This document shows, piece after piece, positions 142 through 37,855 of a stretch of 64,000 bases of DNA (its first letter is position 1; each line of letters opens with the position of its first letter). The stretch lies in NCBI RefSeq assembly GCF_029457495.1, contig NZ_CP120362.1, positions 1-64,000 of the forward strand, in the 5' to 3' direction. The stretch comes from Chelativorans sp. AA-79. GTDB lineage: Bacteria; Pseudomonadota; Alphaproteobacteria; Rhizobiales; Rhizobiaceae. Below the pieces are notes generated by a model. It did not search any database. It saw nothing but the letters and a program-made list of their open reading frames with translations, and had not been told where the DNA came from. A program made the position numbers and the translations under genes.

Positions 142-1563
142 TCACCCTGGTTCGGTAAACGTGACAGGGGTCATCTTCCGGATTGCGGCTTCGCCTCCCA
201 GTTCGCTGACACGCCGCGCTTGATCGGCAAAGGCTACTGTGTTCGTCTTCTCCGGGTCCAGAATCGTTCTCAGCTTAGCCCGAAGCTCTTCGAGCACGAG
301 CGAATATGCCGGCGTCTTCGCAAGATTTGTCATTTCCTCTGGATCCTCGCCGACATCATAGAGCAGGGGGGCATCATCGACATATTCGATAAGCTTAAAG
401 TTGTCCGAACGGAGCATGTAGCTGGCGGTCTTAGATCCCACTGCATGGTACTCCGCGAAGACGGCGCGGCGGAGGTCTCCGGCATGGAGGATGTCCAGCA
501 GGCTTATCCCCGGTCGCGGAGGCCCCAGTACTTCCTGGTCAGATAAGCCTGCAAGGTCCAGGATGGTCGGATAGAGGTCGACCAGGCTCACCGGCGTGTC
601 GCACACCCGTCCAGCGGGAATTCCGGGACCGGCCACTACAAGCGGGACACCTACGCTTTCCTCCCATAGCGTCGATTTGGCCCAAAAGCCTCGAGCCCCC
701 AAGTTGTCACCGTGGTCGGATATGTAGATGACCGACGTGTCTTCGGCGGCCGTGCTGGCTGCAAGTGCGTTCAGCACGCGGCCTATATTTTCGTCGAGCG
801 CACTACATAGGGCATAGTAGTGTGCCAACGCTTCCAGAATGTGTGCCTCATTCTCGAAATAATCCTGATAATTCATCAGCGCACGCATGTCGGCGAGGCT
901 GCGATTCTCGGGGACATAATCGCTCCCCGCCTTCGGTAACGGGAGCTTATCGCGATCGTACATCTCCCTGAAACGCGCGGGCGCGCTGAGCGGAAAGTGC
1001 GGCAGGGCGAACGATATCATAGTGACCCACGGACCATCCGGCCGTGCGTTGTCTAGCCAATCGACCGCTGCATCGGCCACTTGGCGATCATAGTTCCAGT
1101 AAGGGGTTACTTCCTGCCCGACCATGTCCGGCAGTTTCTTCGAACCCGGCCGTTCCATCGGGTCCTTGCGCAGGAGCGAAGAGATGTCTCCGACGCCATC
1201 TTTAACGTGGAGAGGCAGCAGCTGTGTCTCGAAGCCCGTGTCGCACTCCGCATTGGCAAAATGCAACTTGCCGATAGAAGTAACCAATAGGCCGGCATCC
1301 CGCAAGGCATGGCCCCAGCTCGGCACCCTGCCATCATAGGGCGTGGCATTGTCCCAGTAGCGGATCTGGTGCGGGTAATAGCCCGTATGAAAGCTGGCCC
1401 GGGAGGGCACACAGATTGGAGAATTGCAGTATGCGTTCGCAAATCGGGTTCCACCGGCGGCAAGAGCGTCGATTCGGGGCGTGTGGACTTTCCGGTTGTC
1501 ATAGCACCCAACGACCTTGCGGCTATGTTCGTCGGACATGATGATAAGAACATTTCTGGCCAA
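142..1563 (-). CDS. type I sulfatase, cytosolic (module 1)
   Basis: Formylglycine-dependent sulfatase of the alkaline-phosphatase superfamily, hydrolysing a sulfate ester to alcohol and sulfate. Seen: N-terminal metal-binding SDEH, the maturation motif CVPSR with the cysteine at residue 51, a GKLHF catalytic segment and a C-terminal SDHGDN metal site at about 283-287. There is no signal peptide, so it should act in the cytoplasm. I place the start at a TTG (1563) because GAGGAG lies 7 bases upstream and the homologous gene at 36380 begins at the matching point; the open frame continues upstream but would run into tctA. It is the last gene of the leftward tctCBA-sulfatase operon, 37 bases after tctA. 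Its sequence resembles the module 3 sulfatase throughout, including YDG, SDHGDN and EYHAVGS. The substrate is unknown; choline sulfatase and aryl sulfatase relatives are alternatives. Confidence 0.9.
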   Translation of the reverse strand: MARNVLIIMSDEHSRKVVGCYDNRKVHTPRIDALAAGGTRFANAYCNSPICVPSRASFHTGYYPHQIRYWDNATPYDGRVPSWGHALRDAGLLVTSIGKLHFANAECDTGFETQLLPLHVKDGVGDISSLLRKDPMERPGSKKLPDMVGQEVTPYWNYDRQVADAAVDWLDNARPDGPWVTMISFALPHFPLSAPARFREMYDRDKLPLPKAGSDYVPENRSLADMRALMNYQDYFENEAHILEALAHYYALCSALDENIGRVLNALAASTAAEDTSVIYISDHGDNLGARGFWAKSTLWEESVGVPLVVAGPGIPAGRVCDTPVSLVDLYPTILDLAGLSDQEVLGPPRPGISLLDILHAGDLRRAVFAEYHAVGSKTASYMLRSDNFKLIEYVDDAPLLYDVGEDPEEMTNLAKTPAYSLVLEELRAKLRTILDPEKTNTVAFADQARRVSELGGEAAIRKMTPVTFTEPG

Positions 1564-1600
1564 CAGGCTGCTCCTCAAATTTTCGATTCGCGATGCGGGC

Positions 1601-3067
1601 TTATGCCTCGCGTGGTCTGCTGCGTAGGTGGGGTGCCACGAGCATCCCCAGCGCAATGAAGACGAGAACCATCGCAACCGGGTGATTGACGATTCCCAAG
1701 AGACTCCCATCCGAAAGCTGAAGTGCAGTCCTGAGTTCTGTTTCGAAGGGCGTTGCCAGGACAAAGCCGATCACGAACGGGCCCAAGGGCACTCGGGCCC
1801 GGTCGAGGAAGTATCCTAAAACGCCAAATCCCAACATGACCCATACGTCAAACATCCGATTGCCGACCGAATAGGAACCTATGACGCAAAGCACGAAGAC
1901 GACCGGCACGAGAAAGTGGGAGGAGATGTTGATGATCTTCGCGATGTGGCGATAGCTGGCGAACATCAGCACGAACATCATCACATTGGCGATGAAATAA
2001 CCGATCATCATCGCCCAGACGAGATCGCCATTGTTGAGGAACAGCAAAGGTCCCGGCTGCAATTCATGCATGACCATGGCACCAAGCAGAATGGCGTCAA
2101 CGGGCGCACCTGGGATGCCTAAGGTGACGAGCGGAACAAGTGCTCCACCGATATTGGCATTGTTTGCGGATTCCGAAGCGACAACACCGTCGTCGAACCC
2201 GGTCCCAAACCGCTCTGGAGTCTTTGATACAGAGCGCGCCACGGCGTAGGCGACCATCGAGGAAATGCTCGCGCCGGCGCCAGGCAGGATGCCGACCAGC
2301 GTACCGATCGTCGAAGAACGGAGAAGGTTGCGCCCCTGCTTCCACCATTCGCGCATCTTCGGCGTATCACCAAATTTGCCGACGGAGATGATGACTGCCG
2401 CATCTGACTGCTTGGTCACTTCCTTGAAAAGCTGACTGATGACGAACACACCGAGCAAGACCGGAAGAAGCTGGAATCCCGCCACCATATCGTCGAAGCC
2501 GAAAGTCAGCCGCGTCTGGCCGTCTGAAGGCGAGATCCCCGGCAGGGCCGCGGCCACACCAAGCGCGGCCGATATGAGTCCGAGGATCATTGTACCGGCA
2601 GAGATGGCAGCGACCAGAACCAACGCCATGAGCACGAGTGCGGCCAGCTCCCATGGGCCAAACGTCAGTGCCCAGAGCGAAAGGGTCGGGGCGAGTGTGA
2701 TAAGCACTATGCCCGCGAACAAGCCACCCACGAGAGAGCTGCCAATGCCCAGGTTGAGTGCCCGCTCCGCGCGCCCGGCTTCCGCCATGGGATGCCCGTC
2801 GAGCGTTGTAATCAGCGAAGACGGGGTGCCCGGCATGCGCAACAGCGTTGCGCTGATCATGCCGCCGCTGACAGAACCGATATGGATGCCAATCAGAAGC
2901 AGTATGGCGTCAATTGGCTCCATGGCAAAGGTCAGAGGCAGGGCCAGGACCATGAGCATGCCCCCGCCCAAGCCGGGAATGGCGCCGACGACAACACCGC
3001 CCGCGGTACCGATGAGCGTCCAGAGAAGAGAGAGAGGACTTAGCGCCGTCAGCAGTCCTTCGATCAT
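1601..3067 (-). CDS. tctA: tripartite tricarboxylate transporter, large membrane subunit TctA
   Basis: The large integral membrane subunit (488 aa, usual for the family) of a TctABC-type secondary uptake system powered by the ion gradient. Seen: about a dozen hydrophobic segments, the family glycine-proline signature GAIPGLGGGM near residue 30 and a second GILPGAGASIS signature in the middle, which together form the two pseudo-repeats of TctA. Its start overlaps the tctB stop by 4 bases, and the sulfatase follows 37 bases downstream, so all four genes probably share one transcript. Classic TctA carries citrate or other carboxylates with its binding protein. The sulfatase partner suggests an organosulfate or sulfated carboxylate here, which is inference. 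Confidence 0.93.
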   Translation of the reverse strand: MIEGLLTALSPLSLLWTLIGTAGGVVVGAIPGLGGGMLMVLALPLTFAMEPIDAILLLIGIHIGSVSGGMISATLLRMPGTPSSLITTLDGHPMAEAGRAERALNLGIGSSLVGGLFAGIVLITLAPTLSLWALTFGPWELAALVLMALVLVAAISAGTMILGLISAALGVAAALPGISPSDGQTRLTFGFDDMVAGFQLLPVLLGVFVISQLFKEVTKQSDAAVIISVGKFGDTPKMREWWKQGRNLLRSSTIGTLVGILPGAGASISSMVAYAVARSVSKTPERFGTGFDDGVVASESANNANIGGALVPLVTLGIPGAPVDAILLGAMVMHELQPGPLLFLNNGDLVWAMMIGYFIANVMMFVLMFASYRHIAKIINISSHFLVPVVFVLCVIGSYSVGNRMFDVWVMLGFGVLGYFLDRARVPLGPFVIGFVLATPFETELRTALQLSDGSLLGIVNHPVAMVLVFIALGMLVAPHLRSRPREA

Positions 3068-3564
3068 GGAAAGAGCCTCGGGAGGTCAACGTAGAAGACG
3101 GATGTGAGCAGCCACCGGAGTCCTGGCCCCAAGATGGCGGCGGCGGTGGCTGCTGGCAGGATCAATCTTGCCGATTTTCCGATGGTGGGAATGGCCACGC
3201 ATAAAAAAGTGATTGTCGGGATGACAAAGCCAAGGCCGATTTCCATCGCCGCAAGATATGCGACCATCATCGCGAAGGTCAGATAAGGCATGGAGCTGAA
3301 GGGCCACGCCGTTCCGGACGTGTGGACGTTCTCTTGTTGCGGTGGCGCCAGAACGACGACGATATTGACCGCGGCCAGGAAGACCAGGGCGCTGGCGAGG
3401 GCTATCGGCAGGGCTGCCGATCCGACAGGGTCGAACATTGGTGGCGCGATGGACTGTGCGCCCGATAAGAGTAGGCCGGCGACAACGGTGGAAATGGCGG
3501 TGACAACCCAGACTCCACCGCCAAGGCGGCGGAGTCTTTTGCCCAAGTGTAATGATCGGACCAT
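3064..3564 (-). CDS. tctB: tripartite tricarboxylate transporter, small membrane subunit TctB
   Basis: Small membrane subunit (166 aa) of the TctABC system. Four hydrophobic stretches are visible, with the family-like segment PPMFDPVGSAALP after the first one. The same segment recurs in the module 3 TctB at 34378, supporting common origin of the two cassettes. It overlaps tctA by 4 bases and starts one base after the tctC stop, so it should be translationally coupled. TctB proteins are poorly conserved, and the assignment rests on size, topology and position between tctC and tctA. Confidence 0.88.
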   Translation of the reverse strand: MVRSLHLGKRLRRLGGGVWVVTAISTVVAGLLLSGAQSIAPPMFDPVGSAALPIALASALVFLAAVNIVVVLAPPQQENVHTSGTAWPFSSMPYLTFAMMVAYLAAMEIGLGFVIPTITFLCVAIPTIGKSARLILPAATAAAILGPGLRWLLTSVFYVDLPRLFP

Positions 3565-3565: not shown

Positions 3566-4531
3566 CTATTCGTCTTTCTGGGCCCGAACCTTTTCGGTCA
3601 ACGGTTCGATGCGCCGGGTGATCTCGTCAAGGCGCTCGTCGACCTCCTCGGGCGCGATCCAGGTCGGGTCGGCGTTCAGATCCCTGAGCCGGGTCTGAAC
3701 CGCATCGCTTGCCAGAGCCGTTTGCAGCGTCTCGCGCAGTTTTGTTTCGATTTCCGGACCCAACCCTTTCGGTGCAACAAAGATGAGGAAGATGTCGGCT
3801 GAGAAATCTACGCCGATTTCCTTGGCTGTCGGGGTATCGGGAAACGCCGGATCGCGTTCTTCCGAAAACATGACAAGCGGCCTGATCCCAGAGTCTGCAT
3901 GGGCCAGGAGTTCGGGTCCGCCGAGCTGGGCCGCGTCGGCATGGCCGCCCAAGACGGCCGCGAGACGGGCGCCGCCGCCGCCGGACTGAATGAATTTGAG
4001 CTCAATTCCTGCTTCTTGCGCAAACATCAGTGGGAAGAAATGCACGGGCAGGCCGATGTTGGATGCTATAACGATGCTGTTTGGGGCGGCCTTTGCCTCG
4101 TCGATCAGGTCCTGCGGAGTTTCGAAGCGAGAGTCCGAGCGAACCGCAAGGGAGATGTTGGTGCGATTTGTGCCTCCCAGAATGGTAAAGTCGTTGTGAT
4201 CGAAATCGACCACGCCCATCGCCTTGGAGGTGACAAAACCCGGATGCCATATGCCTATCGTGTAGCCGTCGGGTTTTGCATCCTTGATATTGCGTGTGCC
4301 TATGGTTCCGCCGCCGAGCGGTTGGTTCACGACCACAACCGATGGGTAGAGAGCCATCTCTTCGATGGCTTCCTGCACAACGCGCGCCAGCATATCGACG
4401 CTGCCTCCAGGATTGGTCGGAGCTATAATTCGCAACGGCTGGCTTGGGTAGTCTTGCGCCAACGCCGGGGCCGAACCCGCGACAATGGCCATCATGCCGA
4501 CCACCAATGCAGACTTGAGGGACTTGAACAT
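3566..4531 (-). CDS. tctC: TctC/Bug-family periplasmic binding protein (module 1)
   Basis: Extracytoplasmic solute receptor (321 aa) that captures the substrate for TctAB. Seen: a signal peptide with hydrophobic core VVGMMAIVAGSA and a likely cleavage near ALAQ, followed by the YPSQPLRIIAP opening typical of Bug receptors and the NQPLGGGTIGTRNI segment. The start has a strong GGAGG 5 bases upstream. First gene of the operon, divergent from a LysR regulator over 127 bp. It is closely similar to the module 3 receptor at 33249 (shared KDAxPDGYTIGxWH and MGVxDFDH segments), so the two may bind related ligands. Bug receptors bind carboxylates or amides; which ligand applies here cannot be read from sequence. 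Confidence 0.92.
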   Translation of the reverse strand: MFKSLKSALVVGMMAIVAGSAPALAQDYPSQPLRIIAPTNPGGSVDMLARVVQEAIEEMALYPSVVVVNQPLGGGTIGTRNIKDAKPDGYTIGIWHPGFVTSKAMGVVDFDHNDFTILGGTNRTNISLAVRSDSRFETPQDLIDEAKAAPNSIVIASNIGLPVHFFPLMFAQEAGIELKFIQSGGGGARLAAVLGGHADAAQLGGPELLAHADSGIRPLVMFSEERDPAFPDTPTAKEIGVDFSADIFLIFVAPKGLGPEIETKLRETLQTALASDAVQTRLRDLNADPTWIAPEEVDERLDEITRRIEPLTEKVRAQKDE

Positions 4532-4658: not shown

Positions 4659-5570
4659 ATGGTCGACCTGAGAAGGCTTTCCCATTTTGTCGCTGTGGCG
4701 GAGCAGCACAGCATTAACGCTGCTGCACAGCAGTGCGGCATCTCTCAAGCGGGGCTGACCAAGAGCATCCGCACGCTGGAGGGGGGCTTGCAGACCATAC
4801 TTTTTCAGCGCAGCCCCAGAGGTGTGGAACTGACGCGGGCGGGTGCGGTCTTTCTGCGCCACGCCCGCTTGATCCTTTCCCAGAGCGAGGCTGCAGCCGC
4901 CGCCCTCGCGCATGAATCGAGTGGGGCGGGCGCGCGTCTGAGGCTCGGCGTCTCCTCGAGCTGGATTGTCCAGGCAATCATGCCACAAGTCCTGAATACC
5001 GCACTCAACGATGCGCGCAGGCCGCACATTAATATTGTGACGAATCTGAGTTCGCAGGAGATGATCGAGGAGTTGCGCAACGGCGCGCTGGATGTGGTCG
5101 TGGCAGCTCCGAACACGCTAGACAATCTTGAGGAAGTTGATGTCCGGCCAATCTCGCAATTCAGGCAGGGCCTGATCGTACGCAGCGGGCACCGGCTCAG
5201 CGACCTTGTTGCGCCGGTCACGTTCGAGGATCTGGCGTATGTGGAATGGATATGCGGTCCGCCAGGGAGTTACTTTCGTAGTTGTCTCGATTCCCTGCAT
5301 CTGACCAATGAAAGGAGGGCGCCTGATCCACGTTTCGTGACGACTTCTCACGATCTCACGCTCGATATCGTCGCTCAATCAGACCTGGTTGGGATTGCCA
5401 TCGACAAGGTCGTTTCCATTCGCCACACGAACCGTGTGATCATGCTGGACTCGATCTTTTCCCTGGATCGATGGGTATCAGTGCTTTCGCGCAAGGGCGA
5501 CATCCTGCCGATGGCCGCAGAGGATTTAATTGAGTCGCTCAGCGTACATTTCGCGGATGCTCGTTCCTGA
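4659..5570 (+). CDS. LysR-type transcriptional regulator (module 1)
   Basis: LysR-family regulator of 303 aa. N-terminal winged helix-turn-helix (residues about 3-60, with the typical SINAAAQQCGISQ helix) and a C-terminal effector domain of the periplasmic-binding-protein fold. It is transcribed away from tctC-tctB-tctA-sulfatase, so it most likely controls that operon in response to the imported substrate or its product. Its start is followed at once by the family opening DLRRLSHFVAVAEQ. It resembles the module 3 LysR (32222) in the first helix (GISQxGLTKSIRxLE). The effector is unknown. Confidence 0.92.
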   Translation: MVDLRRLSHFVAVAEQHSINAAAQQCGISQAGLTKSIRTLEGGLQTILFQRSPRGVELTRAGAVFLRHARLILSQSEAAAAALAHESSGAGARLRLGVSSSWIVQAIMPQVLNTALNDARRPHINIVTNLSSQEMIEELRNGALDVVVAAPNTLDNLEEVDVRPISQFRQGLIVRSGHRLSDLVAPVTFEDLAYVEWICGPPGSYFRSCLDSLHLTNERRAPDPRFVTTSHDLTLDIVAQSDLVGIAIDKVVSIRHTNRVIMLDSIFSLDRWVSVLSRKGDILPMAAEDLIESLSVHFADARS

Positions 5571-16758: not shown

Positions 16759-17754
16759 CTAACGGACTTCGTAGGTTACTCTGAAACCCACATTGCTGGC
16801 CGCGCTGTCGGGCGAGAGTGCCATACGGGCGGCGATCCGATAGCGATAGCAGTAACTCGCATGGCAAAGGAAAGAGCCGCCTTTCAGAACCTTTTCCGAA
16901 CGGGCAAGTGCCTGCGCATTGCGTTCCTTGGCGCGCCTGGATATTGAACGCAGCCGGAAAGCATCTTTCGTCCATTCCCAGACATTGCCGCACATGTTGT
17001 AGAATCCCAAGTCATTGGGCTCAAAACTCCTGACTGGCGCGGTGCGCTCATAGCCATCACAGACCGTATTCTCTTCAGGAAATCGGCCCTGCCAGATATT
17101 ACAAAAAATGGTCGTGTCATCCGGCTCCTTGTCTCCCCAGGGGAAGCGCCGGCGCAGGCTCCCACCTCGCGCCGCATGTTCCCATTCAGCTTCGCTCGGC
17201 AAGCGCCCGCCAACCCAGGTGGCAAAAGCAATGGCGTCGTTCCATGAGACTTGTGTCACTGGATGATCCTGGCGTTCGTCGACGCAACTTCCCGGTCCTT
17301 CAGGTTGTCGCCAGCAAGCACCGTCCACCCGATGCCACCATGGCAGTTCTGCTCCGGCAGCCCGGGCCGCCTTGAGATGATCGGCGTCGCCAAAAAACAC
17401 AGCCGACCAACCGAAACGCTCGGCCTCTGTGACATAGCCGGTCGCCTCGATGAATTCAGCAAACCGTCTCACGGTTACCGTTTCGGCCTCCAGTGCGAAA
17501 TCGGTAAGTACTACGGCACGCTCGGGCCCTTCCCCATCCTCAGGTATTTTCGGTGCATTCGTCCCGACAAAACTCCTGCCACCGCAAACGCGGATTACGT
17601 TTGCGGGTCGCCCGGGGGGAAACGAGGAAGTACCACCTTTCTGCTCTGCCGACGTGGCATTTACATGCCGCTGCGGCAGAGCACAGCAGTTGCGCTTCGT
17701 GTCCGTTGCGTACGCTCGGACAGTTTCCTTCCTGTGGCTGATTGGAATGTTCAT
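16759..17754 (-). CDS. formylglycine-generating enzyme (sulfatase-modifying factor)
   Basis: Converts the active-site cysteine of type I sulfatases to C-alpha-formylglycine, using copper and oxygen. The 331-aa protein has the whole FGE-sulfatase domain: opening VCGGRSFVGTNAP at about 57, HPVTQVSWNDAIAFATWVGG at 164, LPSEAEWEHAARGG at 185, NMCGNVWEWT at 253 and the catalytic stretch LCHASYCYRYR with Cys297 and Cys302, matching the redox pair of human SUMF1. It is therefore a true maturase and not one of the many FGE-like proteins that lack these cysteines. It stands alone but within 1.5 kb of sulfatase module 2, and presumably serves all three sulfatases in the window. The exact start is uncertain; the first 45 residues are not conserved family sequence. 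Confidence 0.92.
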   Translation of the reverse strand: MNIPISHRKETVRAYATDTKRNCCALPQRHVNATSAEQKGGTSSFPPGRPANVIRVCGGRSFVGTNAPKIPEDGEGPERAVVLTDFALEAETVTVRRFAEFIEATGYVTEAERFGWSAVFFGDADHLKAARAAGAELPWWHRVDGACWRQPEGPGSCVDERQDHPVTQVSWNDAIAFATWVGGRLPSEAEWEHAARGGSLRRRFPWGDKEPDDTTIFCNIWQGRFPEENTVCDGYERTAPVRSFEPNDLGFYNMCGNVWEWTKDAFRLRSISRRAKERNAQALARSEKVLKGGSFLCHASYCYRYRIAARMALSPDSAASNVGFRVTYEVR

Positions 17755-22213: not shown

Positions 22214-23134
22214 ATGGCCCCTGCAGGACTCGACGAGAAGGCCCGGCGTAACCGGCGATGGGTGGTCGTTTCCCTCTTGCCTGTCGCCGCGTTCTTCATC
22301 GTGCTCACGGCGTTCCCTGTCGTCAATCTGCTCGGCCTGAGCTTTTTTCACGTCGAATGGCAAGACGGCGCGGCGCGATTCGATTTCGTAGGCATGGAGA
22401 ACTTCCGACGGCTATTTTCGCAGGAGACTGTCTTCTGGGCCGGCGTGCGAAACAATATCGTTTTCGCGGTCGTAGCAGTCAGCGGCCAGATGATCCTCGG
22501 CTTTTCGATGGCTCTGGCGGTGAAAACCGCCGGTTCCTATGGCCGCGCATTGCTGACGGGCATCTTCCTCCTGCCGATCGTGGTGCCGCCGATCGTGATC
22601 GGAACGATGTGGCGGCTGATCATGGGTCGCGAGTTCGGACTGGCGAACACGCTGCTGGGTTTCTTTGGCCTCGGCCCGGTGGACTGGCTGGGCGATCCGG
22701 ACCTTGCGCTGGCATCGGTCATTTTCGTCGATATCTGGCACTGGACGCCTTTCGTCTTCCTGCTGATGCTGGCCGGTCTCGAATCCCTCGACGGGGAGGT
22801 GCTGGAAGCGGCGCGCATCGACACCGTGAGCCGCTGGCAGCAGATCCGCCATGTCATTATGCCGATGATGCTGCCGACCATCGCCATCACGCTGCTCTTT
22901 CGCGTCATCCTCTCGTTCAAAGTCTTCGACGAGGTCTACCTCCTGACGTCCGGGGGCCCCGGAACCGCGACGGAAGTCGTGAACTTCTCGATATACAGAA
23001 CATTCTTCCGGCAGGACCAGGTCGGCTACGGTGCCGCGATGTCGGTCGTGACGCTGTTTTCCATCAGCCTCATCATTATTCTCGCCCGCGCCTTCGTGCA
23101 GCGGCGGGCGTCGAGACGGGAGGCCGCGACATGA
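22214..23134 (+). CDS. ABC transporter permease, MalF/UgpA-like (module 2)
   Basis: First inner-membrane subunit (306 aa) of the CUT1-type importer. Six hydrophobic helices are visible and the cytoplasmic EAA loop that contacts the ATPase reads EAARIDTVSRWQQIRHVIMP near residue 196. Its stop overlaps the ATG of the second permease (ATGA), indicating coupled translation. It should form a heterodimer with the next gene product. Confidence 0.92.
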   Translation: MAPAGLDEKARRNRRWVVVSLLPVAAFFIVLTAFPVVNLLGLSFFHVEWQDGAARFDFVGMENFRRLFSQETVFWAGVRNNIVFAVVAVSGQMILGFSMALAVKTAGSYGRALLTGIFLLPIVVPPIVIGTMWRLIMGREFGLANTLLGFFGLGPVDWLGDPDLALASVIFVDIWHWTPFVFLLMLAGLESLDGEVLEAARIDTVSRWQQIRHVIMPMMLPTIAITLLFRVILSFKVFDEVYLLTSGGPGTATEVVNFSIYRTFFRQDQVGYGAAMSVVTLFSISLIIILARAFVQRRASRREAAT

Positions 23135-23958
23135 ACCGGAGCCGTGTCGGAGGTCTGCTCGCCAATTCGGTCGTCTGGGGCTATGCCCTGATGATACTGG
23201 GGCCGACATTGTGGGTGCTTTCCAACGCTTTCAAGTTCAAGATCGACATCATTACGGGCGCCACCCTGTCGCCTTTTACCTGGATGAACTTCCAGGAACT
23301 GCTTTTCTCCCGCCAGTCGGATTTCCTGGCGAATCTGTTCAACAGCGCGCTGATCGGCGTCGTGTCGACAGCCATTGTGATCATCGCCGCCACGATGGCG
23401 GCGTTTACCCTTGCCTACCTGGAGGTGAAACCGTGGGTCCGTTGGGCGATACTTGGGTGGGCGCTTCTGTTCCACATGCTGCCGACGCTGACCTTTGTCG
23501 GATCGTGGTACCTGATGTACTCTTCGATAGGGCTGCACGGCACCTATTTCGCTGTCATCATGACGCATGCCGTGCACAACCTACCGATGGCGCTGTTCCT
23601 CATGGTCAGCTTTGTCGGCGCGTTGCCGCGCGAGCTCATCCAGGCAGCGCGGATGGACGGCTGTACCTATGCCCAGGTGTTCTGGCGCATCGTCTTTCCG
23701 CTCGTGCGCGGCGGCATGATCGCGGCTACCGCGCTCACCTTCATCTTCTCATGGAGCGACTTCGCCATCTCGCTCACTTTGACGTCGCGCGACACGATGA
23801 CTGTTCCGGTGGCGATTGCCACCTTCGCCCAGGAATACGACATACGCTACGGCGAGATGGCGGCCGGAACGCTTTTGTCGATCATGCCCGCGCTGCTTCT
23901 CATATTGGTCGGGCAGAACTTCATCGTGCGCGGCCTGCTTGCGGGAGCGGTGAAATGA
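23131..23958 (+). CDS. ABC transporter permease, MalG/UgpE-like (module 2)
   Basis: Second inner-membrane subunit (275 aa) of the importer. Six helices and the EAA loop QAARMDGCTYAQVFWRIVFP around residue 171 are present. The ATG at 23131 overlaps the previous stop by 4 bases. The same frame stays open further upstream, but that stretch lies inside the first permease gene and is not meaningful. Its own stop overlaps the ATG of a tiny frame leading to the ATPase gene. Confidence 0.92.
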   Translation: MNRSRVGGLLANSVVWGYALMILGPTLWVLSNAFKFKIDIITGATLSPFTWMNFQELLFSRQSDFLANLFNSALIGVVSTAIVIIAATMAAFTLAYLEVKPWVRWAILGWALLFHMLPTLTFVGSWYLMYSSIGLHGTYFAVIMTHAVHNLPMALFLMVSFVGALPRELIQAARMDGCTYAQVFWRIVFPLVRGGMIAATALTFIFSWSDFAISLTLTSRDTMTVPVAIATFAQEYDIRYGEMAAGTLLSIMPALLLILVGQNFIVRGLLAGAVK

Positions 23959-24008
23959 GCAATATGAAACTGGCGCCCTTGCGCCGCGACGGGGATGTCG
24001 ATGTCTAA
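23955..24008 (+). CDS. 17-codon open frame bridging permease and ATPase genes
   Basis: An ATG at 23955 overlaps the permease stop (ATGA) and opens a frame of 17 residues starting MSNMKLAPLRRDG and ending at TAA 24006-24008, which overlaps the first codons of the ATPase gene. It may act only as a coupling device that carries ribosomes across the gap, or it may be chance. No product function is proposed. Confidence 0.3.
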   Translation: MSNMKLAPLRRDGDVDV

Positions 24009-25101
24009 CGTTTCGCTGAGAGGCCTGAAAAAGTCCTACGGGAGCGTCGAGGTCATCCCGTCGCTCGACCTCGATATTCGCTCGGGCGAGTTTGTCGTGC
24101 TGGTCGGTCCCTCGGGCAGCGGCAAATCCACGCTGCTGAGGATGATCGCGGGACTGGAAAGCATCGGTGCCGGCACCGTCAGCGTAGAGGGGGAGGACGT
24201 CACGCAACGCGATCCGGGCGACCGCGACATGGCGATGGTGTTCCAATCCTACGCGCTTTACCCGCATATGACGGTCGCGGAGAACATGACATTTGCGCTG
24301 CGCATGCGCGGCATGGACAAGACCACGATCGGCGAGCGGCTGACCGAGTCGGTGCGAATGCTGTCCCTAGAGGGGCTTGAGCACCGCAAGCCCGGACAAC
24401 TGTCCGGCGGACAGAGGCAGCGCGTGGCGATGGGCCGGGCAATCGTGCGTCAGCCGCGGGTATTCCTCTTCGACGAGCCGCTCTCCAACCTGGATGCGAA
24501 ACTGCGCGCCAGAACCCGTATCGAACTGCGTGAGCTGCACGAAAAGTTGGGCGCGACCTCCATCTTCGTCACGCATGATCAGATCGAGGCCATGACGATG
24601 GCCGACCGCATCGTGCTGCTTGAGAAGGGGCGTATCCAGCAGGTTGGTTCTCCGCGTGAAATATACGAGAGGCCGCGCAACACCTTCGTCGCCAGCTTCA
24701 TCGGCTCTCCCGAGATCAACATGATGGAAGGAAAGCTGTGGTTCGACAACGGCACGGCCTGGTTCGAACAGCTCGTTCTTAGGTCGCGCGGGTCGGAGTC
24801 CGCCTCGCTTGCGGGCGTGGCCGCCGGTGGCTATACGCTTGGCATCCGTCCCGAGGGTTTCGATATAGCGCGCGAACCACTGGAGGGCAGCGTGCCGATG
24901 GTGGTGGGAGCGGTCGAATACACCGGTTCCGATACCTATGCATTCGGGAAAAGCCCAATGGGCGATCTAACGGTCAAGATTGCGGCCGACTTTCAGGCTG
25001 TAGCCGAGACGCTTCACACGGGAGAGACACTTCATGTCAAAGCTCTGGCCGACGGCTGGCACCTGTTCGATTCTTCGGGCGAGCGCGTCACCGGCGGTTG
25101 A
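24001..25101 (+). CDS. ABC transporter ATP-binding protein, MalK/UgpC-like (module 2)
   Basis: The ATPase (366 aa) that drives the importer. Seen: Walker A GPSGSGKST at about 36, Q-loop VFQSYALYP, ABC signature LSGGQRQRVAMGRA at about 133, Walker B RVFLFDEPLSNLD, switch histidine FVTHDQIEA, and a C-terminal MalK-type regulatory OB-fold region from about 240 (GIRPEGFDI, TVKIAADF). The preferred ATG at 24001 has GGGG 6 bases upstream; an ATG two codons earlier (23995) is possible. It ends directly against the DUF4432 gene. Confidence 0.93.
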   Translation: MSNVSLRGLKKSYGSVEVIPSLDLDIRSGEFVVLVGPSGSGKSTLLRMIAGLESIGAGTVSVEGEDVTQRDPGDRDMAMVFQSYALYPHMTVAENMTFALRMRGMDKTTIGERLTESVRMLSLEGLEHRKPGQLSGGQRQRVAMGRAIVRQPRVFLFDEPLSNLDAKLRARTRIELRELHEKLGATSIFVTHDQIEAMTMADRIVLLEKGRIQQVGSPREIYERPRNTFVASFIGSPEINMMEGKLWFDNGTAWFEQLVLRSRGSESASLAGVAAGGYTLGIRPEGFDIAREPLEGSVPMVVGAVEYTGSDTYAFGKSPMGDLTVKIAADFQAVAETLHTGETLHVKALADGWHLFDSSGERVTGG

Positions 25102-26103
25102 ATGTCCTCAGGAGGGAGCAAGGTTCGCTCCGTATTCCACGCGTCCGGATATTGCCTGAGCATGCTTCCGGCACCTTCAGTCCTTCGCAGCCTCGTCGGC
25201 GATCTCAAACAGGTCGCCAGTTTGCGCCGCGTTACGCTCATGGACGGGCCCGAAGCCGGGGTCGAGGCGCTCGTCTTTTCCACCGGAGGCGGACTGGACT
25301 TCTGGGTGGTGCCGGGCCGCATGCTCGATATTGCCGCGCTTTCGTGGCACGGCAGCCAGATCGCTTGGCAGAGCCCGGCGGGGATGCGGCCCGTGGATGT
25401 GTCGGGGGGCGATCAGCGCGTGTTCGAGCATGGCTTCGGAGGCTTTCTCAACACCTGCGGCTTCGATCATATCCGCCAGCCGGTTGACGGGTTGCCGCTC
25501 CACGGTTCGGCGCCATTCACCCCGGCCCGGCTGTTGAGTTTCGGCGAGAACTGGGATGCGGAGGAGCCTATCCTCCGTTGCGAGGGCGAGGCGACATGTT
25601 GGCGCCATGGTGGTTACGGATATCGGCTGCGCCGGCGGATTGAGGCTCCGATCGGGGGAGCGACAATCCGCATCCGCGATCGTGTCGAGATCATCGGTCC
25701 CGACCCTGCCGCGGTGCTCGCGCTTTATCATTTCAATCTCGGCTATCCCGCGGTACGCAACGGCACCCAGGTGCTTCTGGACGGGAACCGTGTCGTCGGT
25801 CCGCTCTCGCCGCCGGAGTCAAAGCCCCAGACCCCAACGCTTCATCGCGCGTCTGCTGGATGGGCCGTTTGTCACGTCGTCTTGGCCCACCGCGGAGCTG
25901 CGATCGCCTTTCGCTGGCGCACTGACACACTGCCATGGCTCCAGCTTTGGCGGGATCTACGACCACATCGCGGCGTGTTGTCCATCGAGCCCTGCAGCAT
26001 CGGCCGCCTTCCCGACGGCGCCAACGAGCCGTCGCCGCCAATCAATGCCGGCGAAGCCCGTTCATTCGCAATCGACATCGCGTTCGCTTCGAACCCGTTG
26101 TAA
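25102..26103 (+). CDS. DUF4432 family, aldose-epimerase-like protein (module 2)
   Basis: A 333-aa protein of the DUF4432 group in the galactose-mutarotase fold. Family-like features seen: RMLDIAALSWHGSQIAWQSP at about 73, FEHGFGGFLNTCGFDH at about 109, LHGSAPFTPARLLSF at about 133 and ALYHFNLGYP at about 212. Mutarotase relatives bind sugars and interconvert anomers; the catalytic chemistry of DUF4432 itself is not settled to my knowledge. Last gene of the module 2 operon, starting right after the ATPase stop. The first ATG has no clear ribosome-binding site; ATG 25162 is an alternative start. Context supports a role in processing a sugar freed by the sulfatase. Confidence 0.8.
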   Translation: MSSGGSKVRSVFHASGYCLSMLPAPSVLRSLVGDLKQVASLRRVTLMDGPEAGVEALVFSTGGGLDFWVVPGRMLDIAALSWHGSQIAWQSPAGMRPVDVSGGDQRVFEHGFGGFLNTCGFDHIRQPVDGLPLHGSAPFTPARLLSFGENWDAEEPILRCEGEATCWRHGGYGYRLRRRIEAPIGGATIRIRDRVEIIGPDPAAVLALYHFNLGYPAVRNGTQVLLDGNRVVGPLSPPESKPQTPTLHRASAGWAVCHVVLAHRGAAIAFRWRTDTLPWLQLWRDLRPHRGVLSIEPCSIGRLPDGANEPSPPINAGEARSFAIDIAFASNPL

Positions 26104-32221: not shown

Positions 32222-33127
32222 TCAGTTGACCCGCATTTCAGCCGCAACATCGAACAGACGGCGCGTCAGCATTTCCGCCAGCATGCTGCGTGCCTCGTCC
32301 GCCCGCATGATAATGCCGGCGTGCCGCTCCCAGCCTATCCCGGCGACCTCGAGGCTCACAATCTCGTCCTTGGCCGAGGGCTTGAAGATGGAGCTGGTGG
32401 CGAAGCTCAGGAGATCAGTCTTCTTGACGACCTCGAAGATGAAGGCGATGGAATCGGATTCGATTGCGGGCACGGGCTCGTGCAAACCGTTATAGGCGAA
32501 GATGGCGTTGAAGCGCTGGCGCTGCGCCATCCGCCTGCTGGGCAGCGCCCATCCCGCATCCGCGAGATCGGCGATGGCGAGGTCCGAGCGAGCGGCCAGC
32601 GGATGCCCCCGCCGCGCGATGACGGACTGACGGTCGCGCGTCAGCGGAACTACCTCGAGCGCCCTGTCGTGGCGCGCCTCCTCGCAGGCGGCGATGATGA
32701 GGTCGTATTCCCCCTGCTTCAGCGCTTCGATGAGCTGAGCGTCGAAGCCGCCGGTCACCTTGACCTCGGCGCCCGGCGATGCCTGCAGCAGCTGGGCGAT
32801 CGCCTCGGGCAGGCCGCGGCGCATCCAGGACGGACCGGCGCCGATGGTGAGCCTTCCGGCCGCCCCGTCGCGCAGCGCCTCCAGCTCCCGCCGGGCCTCC
32901 CGCCACTGGGCGACGATCAGGCGCGCGCGATGCGCGAGCGCCTCGCCCTGGGGGTTCGGCCGCATGCCCCGCGACTGCCGCTCCAGGAGCGGCATGGCGA
33001 CCAGATCCTCCAGCGCGCGGATGCTCTTCGTCAGGCCCGATTGGCTGATGCCGGTTTTCTCCGCCGCGCGGCTTAAACTGCCGCAATTGAGCACCGCCAG
33101 GAAATGATCCAGATGCCGGATGTTCAT
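32222..33127 (-). CDS. LysR-type transcriptional regulator (module 3)
   Basis: A 301-aa LysR regulator. The ATG at 33127 is preceded by GAGGGAG at 6 bases and gives the normal opening RHLDHFLAVLNCGSLSRAAE, then GISQSGLTKSIRALEDL. The effector domain follows. Divergent from tctC-tctB-tctA-sulfatase over 121 bp, so it likely controls that operon. It resembles the module 1 regulator more than the module 2 one. Longer upstream frames exist but cross the promoter region. Confidence 0.92.
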   Translation of the reverse strand: MNIRHLDHFLAVLNCGSLSRAAEKTGISQSGLTKSIRALEDLVAMPLLERQSRGMRPNPQGEALAHRARLIVAQWREARRELEALRDGAAGRLTIGAGPSWMRRGLPEAIAQLLQASPGAEVKVTGGFDAQLIEALKQGEYDLIIAACEEARHDRALEVVPLTRDRQSVIARRGHPLAARSDLAIADLADAGWALPSRRMAQRQRFNAIFAYNGLHEPVPAIESDSIAFIFEVVKKTDLLSFATSSIFKPSAKDEIVSLEVAGIGWERHAGIIMRADEARSMLAEMLTRRLFDVAAEMRVN

Positions 33128-33248: not shown

Positions 33249-34214
33249 ATGAATATCTTTAGAAGCGCAGCGGCGGTCCTAGCGGTCGCCGGGCTCATGA
33301 CGACGGCCGCAGGAAACGCGCTTGCGGACTATCCGGAAAAGCCTGTCAAGATCATCGTTCCCACCGATGCCGGCGGAGCGATCGACGGCATCGCACGCAT
33401 CTTCCAACGGGCTTTCGAGCAGGATGAGGAATTCGGCGCCACGGTTGTGGTGACGAACATGCCGGGTGCGGGGGGGACGCTCGCCACGCGCGAGATCAAG
33501 GACGCCGACCCGGACGGCTATACGATAGGCCTGTGGCACAACGGACTGGTCACCTCGGCGGCCATGGGGGTCACGGATTTCGACCACACCGCCTTCGACA
33601 TCATCGGCTCCACGGGCTTCGTTGCCCTTGGTCTCGGCGTCAATGCCGAGAGCGGGCCGGAATCCTTCGAGGCCATGCTTGAGCAGGCTCAGCAGGAACC
33701 GGAAAGCATTAAGGTCGCCGTCAATATAGGCCTCCCGGTGCACTTCATCCCGCTCATGGTCTCGGAGGCCAATGGCGGTAACATGCGCATGGTCCAGGCC
33801 GGCGGAGGTGCCAAGCGCCTGTCCTCCGTGCTGGGCGGGCACACCCACACCGCGCTCTTTTCCGTCCAGGAGCTCGTCAAATACCGGGAGTCGGGGCTGA
33901 AGCCGGTGGTCGTGTTTTCCGAGGAGCGCGTGCCGCAGTTGCCCGATGTCCCGACCACCCGGGAGGCGGGTATCGACGTGCTGGCGACGGACGGACGGAT
34001 CTGGCTGGCGCCGAAGGGTGTCCCGGAGGACCGCATGCAGGTACTGCGTGCGGCGTTCGAACGTGCCATGGAGCAGCCCGAGGTCAAGGACCAGCTCGAA
34101 TCCTACGGCATCACACCCGCCTTCATCGACAGCGATGCCGTCACGGCCGAGCTCAGCCGCGTGCGCGACGAGGTGCTGCCGCTGGTGGAGAAGGTACGCG
34201 CGGCGGCGAACTAG
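33249..34214 (+). CDS. tctC: TctC/Bug-family periplasmic binding protein (module 3)
   Basis: Solute receptor of 321 aa, the same length as the module 1 receptor. Signal peptide (SAAAVLAVAGLMTTAAGNALA), then YPEKPVKIIVPTDAGGAIDG and the receptor fold with TREIKDADPDGYTIGLWHNG and NIGLPVHFIPLMVSEANGG. The ATG at 33249 follows GAGGAGG by 5 to 6 bases. The two receptors share long stretches (PDGYTIG, NIGLPVHF, AGGGAKRLSSVLGGH against SGGGGARLAAVLGGH), suggesting similar ligands. The gap to tctB is 163 bp and contains a hairpin. Confidence 0.92.
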   Translation: MNIFRSAAAVLAVAGLMTTAAGNALADYPEKPVKIIVPTDAGGAIDGIARIFQRAFEQDEEFGATVVVTNMPGAGGTLATREIKDADPDGYTIGLWHNGLVTSAAMGVTDFDHTAFDIIGSTGFVALGLGVNAESGPESFEAMLEQAQQEPESIKVAVNIGLPVHFIPLMVSEANGGNMRMVQAGGGAKRLSSVLGGHTHTALFSVQELVKYRESGLKPVVVFSEERVPQLPDVPTTREAGIDVLATDGRIWLAPKGVPEDRMQVLRAAFERAMEQPEVKDQLESYGITPAFIDSDAVTAELSRVRDEVLPLVEKVRAAAN

Positions 34215-34377: not shown

Positions 34378-34848
34378 ATGAACCGTAGCGACTTCTGGTG
34401 GGACACCGGCTGGACCGCTGGCCTACTGGCCCTCTCCGGCCTCGTCTGGTGGGCCGTCGAGCAACTCCCGCCGCCGATCTTCGATCCGGTGGGATCGGCC
34501 GCGCTGCCCAAGGTGACCGTGGTGGTGATCGCCGCCTTGAGCGTGGCCATGGGAGCGGCTGCCTGGCGCAGCCGGCATGCGCCACCCAAACCGGCGTCGG
34601 CGCCGGATCAGGAGGGGGGCGGTCGCCCGATCTACGGGATGCAGATGCTGGCTCTGCTGATCGCCTACGCGCTGCTCCTGCCGCTCCTGGGTTTCGCGGC
34701 GGCCACTTTCCTGTTCGTTCTGGCCGGTGGCGTCATCCTGGCGCGCGGCGATCGCAAGGCGATGCTGGCGAGCCTCGTCTCGGCGGTCCTGCTCAGCGTC
34801 GGATGCCAGTACCTCTTCACCGACATCTTCTACATCGACCTGCCCTGA
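34378..34848 (+). CDS. tctB: tripartite tricarboxylate transporter, small membrane subunit TctB
   Basis: A 156-aa membrane protein with four hydrophobic stretches. It holds the segment PPPIFDPVGSAALP, nearly the same as in the module 1 TctB, and ends FTDIFYIDLP where the module 1 protein has SVFYVDLPRLFP. It sits between tctC and tctA, with 11 bases to tctA. It should assemble with TctA and take no direct part in ligand capture. Confidence 0.88.
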   Translation: MNRSDFWWDTGWTAGLLALSGLVWWAVEQLPPPIFDPVGSAALPKVTVVVIAALSVAMGAAAWRSRHAPPKPASAPDQEGGGRPIYGMQMLALLIAYALLLPLLGFAAATFLFVLAGGVILARGDRKAMLASLVSAVLLSVGCQYLFTDIFYIDLP

Positions 34849-34859: not shown

Positions 34860-36383
34860 ATGTTGGCCAGCCTGGGCGGCGCCCTCCTCGAAATGCTGCA
34901 TCCGGTGCCCTTCTTCTGGGTGGCGCTCGGCGTCGTCTCTGGCATCTTCGTCGGCGCGATCCCGGGACTGTCCGGCGGCATGCTGATCGTGCTCGTCATG
35001 CCGCTGACCTTCTACATGGACCATACGCTGGCCCTGATCCTGATGGTCGGCATCTATGTCGGCTCGGTGGCCGGCGGCCTAATCAGCGCCACGCTGCTCA
35101 GGATGCCGGGCACGCCGTCCTCGGTGGTCACCACCTTCGACGGCTATCCGATGGCGCGGGGCGGCCAGCCGGCGCGCGCGCTGGCGCTCGGCATTTCGGC
35201 CAGCCTCTTCGGCGGGTTCGTCGCCGGCTTCTTCCTGGTGGTGCTCTCGCCGCCGCTGTCGCGCTGGGCGACGAGCTTCGGCCCGTGGGAATATTTCGGG
35301 CTCGTTCTGATGGCGCTGGTCCTCATCGCGGCCATCAGCCAGGGCTCCATGGTCAAGGGGCTGATCTCTGGCGCGCTCGGCCTGCTTGCCGCCATGCCCG
35401 GCCTCAACGCCTCCGACGGCCAGCTCCGGCTCACCTTCGGCTTTCACCAGATGGATGCGGGCTTTGCGCTGCTGCCGGTGCTGCTCGGCGTCTTCGTGGT
35501 CAGTCAGATCATCCGCGACGCGATGGACGGCGACAAGGTGCCCGAGGCGGTCGACGTCTCCCGCAACATCGTGCTCCTGGAAGCCGCCGCATGGGTCCGC
35601 CATGCATGGAACATGCTGCGCTCGGCGCTGATCGGCACCTGGATAGGCATCCTGCCCGGTGTGGGCGCCAGCATCTCCTCCATGGTCGCCTATGGAGTGG
35701 CGCGCACGGTCTCGCGCCGGCCGGACGCCTTTGGCAAGGGCAGCGAGGAGGGAGTCGTCGCTTCGGAATCGGCCAACAACGCCAACGTGGGGGGCGCGCT
35801 GATCCCGCTCGTCACCATGGGCATTCCCGGCAGCCCGATCGACGCCTTCCTTCTGGGAGCGCTGCTGTTGCACAACATTCAGCCGGGGCCGCTGCTGTTC
35901 CAGACCAACGGCGACCTCGTCTGGGCCATCATCGCCGCCTATCTCGTCGGCAATGTCCTGATGTTCCTGGTCATGTCGACCACGGTGCGCTTCACCGCCC
36001 GTCTCGCCAACATCAATCCGGCGGTGCTCCTGCCGGCGATCTTCGTCTTCTGCATCATCGGCGCCTATGCGCTCAGCAACCGGCTCTTCGACGTCTGGGT
36101 CATGATCGGCTTCGGCATTTTGGGCTTTTTGTTGCAGCGGGCCGCCTTCCCGCTCGGCGCCTTCGTCATCGGCTTCGTGCTCTCGCCCATCTTCGAGGCG
36201 GAGCTTCGCTCGGCGGTCATGTCGTCGGGCGGCACTATCTGGGAACTTTTCACCCGTCCGATTGCGCTCACCTTTATCGCCGTGGCTGTCCTCGTACTTT
36301 TCCTGCCTCTACTGCGCGGATTGCGCAGGCGTCCCGGCGACGGTCCAGACGAAGCCGGGCAAACCCGCCAAAGCAAACCATGA
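34860..36383 (+). CDS. tctA: tripartite tricarboxylate transporter, large membrane subunit TctA
   Basis: Large membrane subunit of 507 aa. It contains GAIPGLSGGMLIVLVMPLTF near 33 and GILPGVGASISSMVAYGVAR near 265, the two repeat signatures of TctA, and SANNANVGGALIPLVTMGIP, also found in the module 1 protein as SANNANIGGALVPLVTLGIP. About a dozen hydrophobic segments. The stop overlaps the sulfatase ATG (ATGA), so transport and hydrolysis genes are directly coupled. Confidence 0.94.
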   Translation: MLASLGGALLEMLHPVPFFWVALGVVSGIFVGAIPGLSGGMLIVLVMPLTFYMDHTLALILMVGIYVGSVAGGLISATLLRMPGTPSSVVTTFDGYPMARGGQPARALALGISASLFGGFVAGFFLVVLSPPLSRWATSFGPWEYFGLVLMALVLIAAISQGSMVKGLISGALGLLAAMPGLNASDGQLRLTFGFHQMDAGFALLPVLLGVFVVSQIIRDAMDGDKVPEAVDVSRNIVLLEAAAWVRHAWNMLRSALIGTWIGILPGVGASISSMVAYGVARTVSRRPDAFGKGSEEGVVASESANNANVGGALIPLVTMGIPGSPIDAFLLGALLLHNIQPGPLLFQTNGDLVWAIIAAYLVGNVLMFLVMSTTVRFTARLANINPAVLLPAIFVFCIIGAYALSNRLFDVWVMIGFGILGFLLQRAAFPLGAFVIGFVLSPIFEAELRSAVMSSGGTIWELFTRPIALTFIAVAVLVLFLPLLRGLRRRPGDGPDEAGQTRQSKP

Positions 36384-37855
36384 AAGGCTCGAGAGTGACC
36401 GCCAAGAACGTCCTTTTCATCCTATCCGACGAGCATGCACGTGGTATCACGGGCTGCTACGGAAACAATGCCGTCAAGACGCCGAATATCGATGCGCTCG
36501 CGGCCGCCGGCACTACATTCGAGAACGCCTATTGCAACAACCCGATCTGCGTTCCCTCGCGCGCCTCCCTCGCCACAGGCCGTCACACGCACGAGATCGG
36601 CTTCTGGGACAACGCCCAGCCCTATGACGGCTCGGTGCGCGGCTGGGCGCACGCGCTTTCGGAGGCGGGGCACAGGGTCGCCTCCATCGGCAAGCTGCAC
36701 TACCGCGACGCGGACGCGCCCGTCGGCTTCACCGAGCAGATCCTTCCCATGCACGTTGTGGAGGGCAAGGGCGACCTGCACGGGCTGCTGCGCAGTCCGC
36801 CGCGCATCCGCCCCAGCATGAAGAACCTCAGCGCGGAGCTCGGGCCGGGCGATTCCGACTATTCCCGATATGATTCCGCTATCACGGACGCCGCCTGCCG
36901 ATGGATTGCGGAGCGCGCCCGCAAGCCCGACGAGAAGCCTTGGGCCGCCTTCGTTTCGCTCGCCTGCCCCCATTTCCCGCTGGTGGCGCCAAAGCGCTTC
37001 TTCGACCTCTACGACCCGGCGAAGCTGCCTTGGCCCAAGGGGCGCGACGGCAACGGAGCGCTCGCCCATCCGGTGCTCGCCGCCTTCCGCAAATACCAGA
37101 ACTACGATGACTATTTCACCGGCGAGGAGCATGTGCGCCTGGCTGTCGCCTCCTATTACGCGCTGGTCTCCTTCCTCGACCACAATATCGGCCGCATCCT
37201 GGAGTCGCTCTCCGGGAGCGGGCTCACCGAGGACACGCTCGTCATCTATACGAGCGACCATGGCGACAATCTCGGCGCGCGCGGCTTCTGGGGCAAGTCG
37301 CTTCTGTTCGAGGAAAGCGTGGGGGTTCCGATGATCATGGCCGGGCCCGGCGTGCCGCGGGGCCGTCGCGTCGCCACGCCGGTGTCGCTGGTGGATGTCG
37401 CGCCCACCATCATGGACGCGGCCTGCGAGGAGGTCCACAGCAGCGAGGCCACCGATCTGCCCGGCCGCTCCCTCCTTTCGATCGCCGGCGATCCCGACGA
37501 CCCGGACCGCACCGTGCTCGCGGAGTATCACGCCGTTGGCTCGATCACCGGCTGCTTCATGATCCGCTTCGACCGATGGAAATACATACATTTCGTGGAT
37601 TATCCGCCGCTCCTGTACGATCTCAAGGCCGATCCCGAGGAGATGTGCGATCTCGCCGAGGATTCGGAATATGCCGGTGTTCGTTCGCGGGCCGAGGCGC
37701 GATTGCGCGCCATTGTCGACCCGGAGAAAGTAAGCGCACGGGCTTTTGCGGATCAGCAGCGTATAATCGAACGCAACGGGGGGATAGAGAGGATCCTAAG
37801 CCGTGGAGAGTTCCCGCATACGCCGGTACCTTACGCAGACCCCTCGTTCAACTAG
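36380..37855 (+). CDS. type I sulfatase, cytosolic (module 3)
   Basis: A 491-aa formylglycine-dependent sulfatase. Seen: KNVLFILSDEHARG at 9, maturation motif CVPSR with Cys57, NAQPYDGSVRGWAHALSEAG, GKLHY, and YTSDHGDNLGARGFWGKS as second metal site. It is co-linear with the module 1 sulfatase (also ENAYCNNPICVPSRAS against ANAYCNSPICVPSRAS, and EYHAVGS). No signal peptide. The ATG at 36380 overlaps the tctA stop; an in-frame GTG at 36395 is a minor alternative. The upstream extension of the same frame lies inside tctA and is not coding. Confidence 0.92.
   Translation: MKGSRVTAKNVLFILSDEHARGITGCYGNNAVKTPNIDALAAAGTTFENAYCNNPICVPSRASLATGRHTHEIGFWDNAQPYDGSVRGWAHALSEAGHRVASIGKLHYRDADAPVGFTEQILPMHVVEGKGDLHGLLRSPPRIRPSMKNLSAELGPGDSDYSRYDSAITDAACRWIAERARKPDEKPWAAFVSLACPHFPLVAPKRFFDLYDPAKLPWPKGRDGNGALAHPVLAAFRKYQNYDDYFTGEEHVRLAVASYYALVSFLDHNIGRILESLSGSGLTEDTLVIYTSDHGDNLGARGFWGKSLLFEESVGVPMIMAGPGVPRGRRVATPVSLVDVAPTIMDAACEEVHSSEATDLPGRSLLSIAGDPDDPDRTVLAEYHAVGSITGCFMIRFDRWKYIHFVDYPPLLYDLKADPEEMCDLAEDSEYAGVRSRAEARLRAIVDPEKVSARAFADQQRIIERNGGIERILSRGEFPHTPVPYADPSFN

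Follow-up and report, generated by a model that had tools for sequence, protein, structure and literature searches.

The gene clusters of the window

The window analyzed here (64,000 nucleotides) is the first 64 kb of the 236-kb contig C2 of Chelativorans sp. AA-79, whose genome of 5.76 Mb is in three contigs (C1 to C3). It contains three LysR-flanked modules, in each of which the genes of an importer stand together with the gene of a cytosolic type I sulfatase, and a gene for a formylglycine-generating enzyme (FGE). The importer is a tripartite tricarboxylate transporter (TTT) in modules 1 and 3 and a sugar-type ATP-binding cassette (ABC) importer in module 2. We infer co-transcription, direction of transport, class of substrate and regulation from the sequences.

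Module 1 is composed, on the reverse strand, of tctC1 (3566..4531) for the periplasmic receptor (PF03401, 116.9 bits), tctB1 (3064..3564) for the small permease (PF07331, 35.2 bits at a cut-off of 29.1), tctA1 (1601..3067) for the large permease (PF01970, 457.3 bits) and the gene of sulfatase 1 (142..1563; 473 amino acids; PF00884, 164.7 bits, scanned as the longer open reading frame 142-1764), from which lysR1 (4659..5570, forward strand; PF00126 and PF03466) diverges. Module 3, on the forward strand, is composed of tctC3 (33249..34214; PF03401, 99.5 bits, scanned from 33219), tctB3 (34378..34848; PF07331, 56.7 bits), tctA3 (34860..36383; PF01970, 476.6 bits) and the gene of sulfatase 3 (36395..37855; 486 amino acids; PF00884, 140.1 bits, scanned as a longer frame), with the divergent lysR3 (32222..33127, reverse strand; PF00126 and PF03466; likely start the ATG at 33127). 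The order tctC-tctB-tctA-sulfatase is common to both modules, the gap between tctA and the sulfatase gene being 37 bases in module 1 and 11 bases in module 3. TctA, TctB and TctC each score above their Pfam cut-offs in both modules, which identifies the importers as TTT systems. Sulfatases 1 and 3 are 52% identical, the TctA proteins 56-57%, TctC 44%, TctB 29-31% and the LysR proteins 28%; judged by these alignments, the two modules are homologous in every gene and represent a single operon in two diverged forms. Module 2 has in common with them only that its sulfatase belongs to the same superfamily (25-26% identity) and its regulator to the LysR family.

The sulfatase 1 gene starts at 1563, with TTG after GAGGAG, and the sulfatase 3 gene at 36395, with GTG. 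The starts at 1764 and 34727 were rejected; they belong to over-long open frames that run into tctA. With the corrected starts the N-terminus of all three sulfatases lies at the first beta-strand of the fold and, inspected by eye, has no signal peptide, while signal-like N-termini are seen, also by eye, on TctC1, TctC3 and the receptor of module 2. All three sulfatases score above the PF00884 cut-off and carry the CxPxR motif (CVPSR in sulfatases 1 and 3, CMPAR in sulfatase 2), which together define type I sulfatases. The original prediction of three LysR-flanked operons, each with an importer and a CxPxR sulfatase without signal peptide, was thus confirmed, the gene families by the Pfam assignments, two sulfatase starts having been corrected.

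Recurrence of the TctABC-sulfatase pairing

Relatives of sulfatase 3 were sampled blind to context in 199 genomes of the family (10 with matches) and 385 genomes of the class (31 with matches), the own genome included; the first seven or four candidates per genome were scored, and paralogues may be missed. Outside the own genome 49 matches from 39 genomes were listed, and all were read together with flanks of about 8.5 kb in both directions as far as the contigs reached. In 11 of these 49 loci a TctA gene was found within 6 kb of the sulfatase gene, against 0.96 expected from the density of TctA in these 39 genomes, which have 188 matches in about 154.6 Mb (Poisson P ~7e-9, relatedness ignored). 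We therefore reject chance adjacency.

A second set consisted of the best 80 of at least 583 contig matches, one of them the module 3 copy of Chelativorans intermedius and three on contigs overlapping the first set. Among these best 80, TctA lay within 6 kb in 17, TctC within 700 bp without TctA in 23 and another recognised transporter in nine; in 31 none was recognised with the small reference set used. The 23 loci with TctC only weigh less because some beta-proteobacteria have TctC genes in very large numbers (available part of PMC5812351).

From the transporter side, 11 relatives of TctA3 outside the own genome were collected from the same samples (E <=1e-140; three or seven candidates scored per genome). 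For seven of them a sulfatase gene was found within 6 kb (one at 4.9 kb), two of these seven loci also holding an FGE gene; for four there was none in the stretch read. The adjacency, which the original prediction had asked to be counted in public genomes, thus recurs when counted from either side.

The order tctC-tctB-tctA-GntR-sulfatase with a nearby FGE gene was found in a congener (L197) and in another relative (L199), the sulfatases of which are merely 28-29% identical to sulfatase 3. Ten of the 18 plasmid loci listed at >=42% identity were opened, and in three of them, from Paracoccus seriniphilus, Sulfitobacter sp. SK012 and Sulfitobacter mediterraneus (the last with an FGE gene), a complete TTT stands beside the sulfatase. 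On haloarchaeal plasmids, too, there are proteins related to sulfatase 3 (about 40-42% identity); ABC importer genes adjoin in the one locus opened (L016). Among 129 neighbours of TTT-linked sulfatases were two ComA proteins (phosphosulfolactate synthase) and four DUF3604 proteins.

Proposed function and substrates

For modules 1 and 3 we propose that the periplasmic receptor TctC would bind a small sulfated carboxylate, that TctA/TctB would carry it into the cell and that the cytosolic, FGE-matured type I sulfatase would free sulfate and the carboxylate, the divergent LysR protein probably controlling the operon. In module 2 a sulfated neutral sugar is probably imported by the sugar-type ABC importer and then desulfated inside, after which the DUF4432 protein probably acts on the released sugar. 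That the modules couple import to intracellular desulfation, as had been predicted, is the natural reading of their gene content, and we hold it to be very likely.

The substrate of modules 1 and 3 is probably a carboxylate sulfate; we say carboxylate mainly because of the transporter family, TTT systems carrying mainly carboxylates, with a substrate range not fully explored (excerpt of PMC5812351), and sugar acid because of the relatives of the transporter. Sulfated sugar acids (aldonates or uronates) are the likeliest candidates, a tentative assignment to which we give somewhat less than an even chance. TTT systems have been reported for sulfolactate and for galactarate/glucarate (in the same excerpt), and another for alginate oligosaccharides (part of PMC13390454). 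The receptor of the latter (25hk, 107.6 bits) is the best match of TctC1 among Protein Data Bank sequences, followed by 4x9t (104.0 bits); the match is distant.

A TctA tree was calculated with 54 rows, four of 58 (L017, two from L034, L150) having been dropped. The sulfatase-linked rows formed pure starred groups of eight, both window TctA among them, and of 11, plus smaller ones; the tree had 8 label changes, 6 of them forced by starred branches, as compared to 17.7 in shuffles, counts that are rough because the unlinked rows come mostly from one genome. This suggests that TTT were recruited to sulfatases repeatedly, from separate TctA groups. Next to the group of the window's TctA (97% in the Shimodaira-Hasegawa-like approximate likelihood ratio test) groups a TctA of the own genome that is without sulfatase and is encoded in an operon (C1:4478000-4490000) with an L-arabinonate dehydratase (1080 bits, cut-off 882), an enolase-superfamily gene, TctC-sized and TctB-sized open reading frames, a KdgD/DapA-type gene and a LacI-type regulator; it is an apparent operon for aldonate uptake and catabolism. 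The 11 close TctA relatives are distributed over ten loci, seven of which (L134, L191, L193-L197) also have an enolase-superfamily gene. When seven enolase-type proteins from six loci were scored with NCBIfam models, one exceeded its cut-off, an L-rhamnonate dehydratase in L193 (778 vs 393); the others were sub-threshold relatives of sugar-acid dehydratases and cycloisomerases.

A first contrast, in which MR_MLE_C was found in 9 of 129 proteins from linked loci and in at most 1 of 112 TTT-free proteins (p ~0.02), was withdrawn. Its control was hand-picked (112 of 194 proteins, 25 of 35 loci) and the enolase-type gene of L169 had been missed in the gene calls; of the 27 linked loci, five had been recruited through a TctA search, and six of the 135 long open reading frames at linked loci were left unscanned.

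More broadly, we propose a widespread route by which sulfated carboxylates, whether sugar acids or others, would enter whole through TTT and be desulfated in the cytosol by a separate clade of formylglycine-sulfatases that is related to choline sulfatase without belonging to it; the transporters would have been recruited repeatedly from several TTT lineages, and the genes would often be plasmid-borne. To this proposal we give a nearly even chance. Several findings weigh against our explanation of modules 1 and 3. Most of the sampled loci (38 of 49, some on short contigs) lack TctA within 6 kb, and a single MarR-type arrangement is common to six of the 11 linked ones, which means fewer independent events. 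The other plasmid relatives that were opened adjoin genes of tripartite ATP-independent periplasmic (TRAP), ABC or major facilitator superfamily transporters or no clear importer; the sulfatase family is therefore not tied to one transporter. In the TctA tree, 20 of the 23 unlinked rows are from this genome and only three from others. Enolase-superfamily genes occur also in two of the four loci of the TctA group that are without sulfatase, and tblastn, applied alike to both kinds of sulfatase locus, showed no significant excess of them at TTT-linked (4 of 27) over unlinked loci (8 of 99; p 0.28). The sugar-acid signal therefore belongs to the TctA group, and our estimate for sugar acids was lowered slightly after this null result. 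Finally, neither TTT operon of the window contains a gene for a sugar-acid enzyme.

The lack of a sugar enzyme in the window operons and of an enrichment of sugar-acid genes at linked loci as such would fit modules 1 and 3 importing sulfated aromatic acids, e.g. sulfated phenolic acids, as sulfur source. Among known TTT receptors are those for terephthalate and nicotinate (available part of PMC5812351), and some relatives adjoin genes of an FAD-linked oxidase, a ring-hydroxylating dioxygenase or the homogentisate pathway. We consider aromatic acids unlikely in view of the neighbouring TctA lineage beside L-arabinonate dehydratase and of the enolase-superfamily genes at seven of the ten loci of the window's TctA group.

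It is less likely still that an unsulfated carboxylate is imported and the sulfatase acts elsewhere, the two having only a regulator or a niche in common. TTT genes are abundant in the genome (25 PF01970 matches), and the four close TctA relatives without a sulfatase nearby would fit such an arrangement. Against it stand the short distances between tctA and the sulfatase gene (11 and 37 bases) and the fact that TctA proteins of separate groups go with sulfatases of separate groups.

The sulfatases

Conservation of residues was determined in an alignment of 126 distinct relatives, sulfatases 1 and 3 included. The nucleophilic cysteine and the arginine of the motif are kept in all 126. Asp12 of sulfatase 3 is found in 125, Asn73 in 112 (Ser in the other 14) and Lys301 in 123, and His193, Asp288, His289 as well as Lys100 and His102, the latter two of which we take to be metal or sulfate ligands, in each of the 126. 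The roles of Asp12, Asn73, His193, Asp288, His289 and Lys301 as metal or sulfate ligands are taken from the accessible text of PMC9063841; the ligands of type I sulfatases are thus present. Conserved in the clade are also Arg133 (116/126) and His379 (124/126); for Arg133 no specificity is claimed because the choline sulfatase of Sinorhizobium meliloti (SmCS) has a lysine opposite. A PADLOC search with the three sulfatases gave nothing.

Phosphonate monoester hydrolases (PMH) belong to enzymes that may also use formylglycine. We nevertheless consider it very improbable that the three proteins, instead of being sulfatases, hydrolyse phosphonates or phosphodiesters like other members of the superfamily: PehA (NF045661) is the best NCBIfam model for sulfatase 2, and PMH structures are among the close folds of sulfatase 3 and the close sequences of sulfatase 2, but the scores of 144.4 bits (sulfatase 2) and 143.6 bits (sulfatase 1) are far below the cut-off of 900, and FGE genes recur beside the operons. 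NCBIfam scoring covered sulfatases 1 and 2.

The nearest solved structure, by sequence and by fold, is SmCS, and choline sulfatase is also the closest fold to the AlphaFold model of sulfatase 3 (predicted local distance difference test score 91.5). Glu386 of SmCS recognizes the quaternary ammonium group of choline and is reported to be fully conserved in choline sulfatases (excerpt of PMC5870055). At this position sulfatases 1 and 3 have valine, and neither glutamate nor aspartate was found there in any of the 126 distinct relatives. With the choline sulfatase model TIGR03417 (cut-off 433.45) sulfatase 1 scored 291.6 and sulfatase 2 91.3. Identity to most proteins listed as betC is about 33-37%; another of them, with 46.6%, is itself a member of the clade described here. 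At least one protein, from Neorhizobium, of the clade is annotated as choline-sulfatase, against which these residues argue. The equivalents of Trp129 and His145 are Asp and Lys in sulfatase 3; they are not used as proof because the alignment is poor there and the anchor, BetC of Rhizobium leguminosarum, does not itself have the motif that was published. Choline-O-sulfate or another cationic sulfate ester, the former considered in the original prediction, is hence very improbable as substrate of modules 1 and 3: the closeness to choline sulfatase structures and the location of betC in R. leguminosarum alongside genes for a LysR protein and a betaine-type ABC importer are outweighed by the subthreshold TIGR03417 score, the missing acidic residue and the preference of TTT for carboxylates.

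Formylglycine-generating enzymes

The FGE gene of the window (16759..17754, reverse strand; PF03781, 248.9 bits) encodes both catalytic cysteines, its motif GGSFLCHASYCYRYR aligning with GGSYMCHRSYCYRYR of human SUMF1, as is characteristic of aerobic formylglycine-generating enzymes and as had been predicted. It is not the only maturase, as had been assumed: the genome has seven FGE-domain matches, and five of the genes carry the CxxxxC pair, three of them on C2 (window, C2:106.5 kb, C2:170.7 kb) and the others at C3:143.5 kb and C1:4.017 Mb. The pair is also present in a broken FGE fragment at C3:142.2 kb and was not seen in the match at C1:4.327 Mb. The C3 copy is identical to the window FGE in protein sequence (100%), with 99.1% DNA identity over 1526 bases.

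At C2:170-177 kb, outside the window, lies a third TctABC-sulfatase operon of the plasmid, which has an FGE of its own. There an FGE gene (88% to that of the window) and a LysR gene are followed divergently by a gene for a module-2-type sulfatase (62%) and then by TctC, TctB and TctA genes; the order FGE, LysR, module-2-type sulfatase is that of the window. Since the window FGE adjoins module 2 and the same order is repeated at C2:170 kb, the FGE belongs by position with the module-2-type sulfatases.

Module 2

Module 2 begins with lysR2 (18274..19188, reverse strand; PF00126 and PF03466), its divergent regulator. On the forward strand follow the genes of sulfatase 2 (19271..20815; 514 amino acids; PF00884, 117.2 bits, scanned from 19241; 90% to the protein of Nitratireductor thuwali), a sugar-type ABC receptor (20812..22158; PF01547, 127.1 bits), ABC permease 1 (22214..23134; PF00528, 72.8 bits), ABC permease 2 (23131..23958; assigned by similarity only, to a carbohydrate ABC permease of N. 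thuwali, with frame and start checked), an ABC ATPase of the UgpC type (23995..25101; PF00005 and PF08402) and the DUF4432 protein (25102..26103; PF14486, 147.2 bits).

The 7.8 kb of module 2 are present in N. thuwali p1536_2 at 82% DNA identity, within a plasmid stretch of 37.8 kb that is without modules 1 and 3. The same gene order is found in Roseibium and in Neorhizobium, in the latter with an FGE gene downstream, and S. meliloti pSmeSM11a has the portion with LysR, sulfatase, receptor and permease. The plasmid-borne sugar-ABC/DUF4432/sulfatase operon of Nitratireductor, Roseibium and Neorhizobium is thus module 2 in identical order, differing by sequence divergence only. No characterized member of this operon was found, and a single literature search for DUF4432 gave no relevant title. 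In C3:138000-157800 there is a decayed copy of module 2 (LysR 74%, a sulfatase fragment 91% with an in-frame stop, pieces of DUF4432), about 10 kb from the FGE gene identical to that of the window.

Plasmid setting

C2 is regarded as a plasmid, as had been predicted, because RepA-, RepB- and RepC-type genes (54138-57965) and Trb/VirB-type genes (TrbI, VirB8, TrbL, TrbE and a secretion ATPase, within 44225-53719) are present. The prediction of a single island is only weakly supported. Modules 1 and 2 are about 11 kb apart, with a resistance-nodulation-division (RND) pump and other genes in the gap; genes for an IS66 transposase (30500-31381) and an rve-type integrase (28222-29187) are located in the stretch from module 2 to module 3; and module 2 occurs alone in N. 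thuwali. A DDE transposase gene (38083-38778) lies downstream of module 3. A contig of C. intermedius matches bases 27923-40897 of the window at 99.99%. A TctC gene fragment (40091-40716), with a Pfam score slightly below the cut-off, has 78.7% DNA identity over 545 bases to TctC of the third TTT-sulfatase operon, at C2:174 kb, and is what is left of a further TTT operon.

Between modules 1 and 2 are also a gene for a patatin-like phospholipase (6107-7417), near module 1, and the genes of the RND efflux pump, its membrane-fusion protein and a MarR regulator (9499-14351). Transposition genes with Mu-transpos_C/rve, TniB and TniQ domains are found at 59707-63535. In an Rfam scan of the window no family reached its gathering score.

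Relation to known systems

Choline sulfate operons offer a precedent in kind for an importer grouped with a type I sulfatase and a LysR gene, and sulfolactate is an organosulfur acid with a known TTT. The choline-O-sulfate operon of R. leguminosarum (pRLG203) shares with the modules the co-location of the three functions and encodes the closest fold; it differs in that its importer is a betaine ABC importer rather than a TTT and in that the choline-binding Glu386 is absent here. SlcHFG, the TTT for 3-sulfolactate, likewise imports an organosulfur carboxylate, but this is a sulfonate and not a sulfate ester, and a sulfatase is not mentioned in the available part of PMC5812351. The TTT for alginate oligosaccharides of Vibrio sp. 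C42 (TTT-C, PDB 25HK) is a transporter of sugar-acid oligomers, for which the excerpt of PMC13390454 mentions no sulfatase. In searches of the open-licence PMC literature no title or beginning of an abstract described the TTT-sulfatase pairing or its sulfatase clade.

Accounts of how sulfated matter is used usually feature exported sulfatases. That genes for a carboxylate importer and a cytosolic sulfatase are repeatedly neighbours suggests that bacteria take up small sulfated acids intact, and TctC and the sulfatase are a concrete receptor-enzyme pair with which such acids may be found. If this is true, sulfate-ester carboxylates would join the substrate range of the TTT family.

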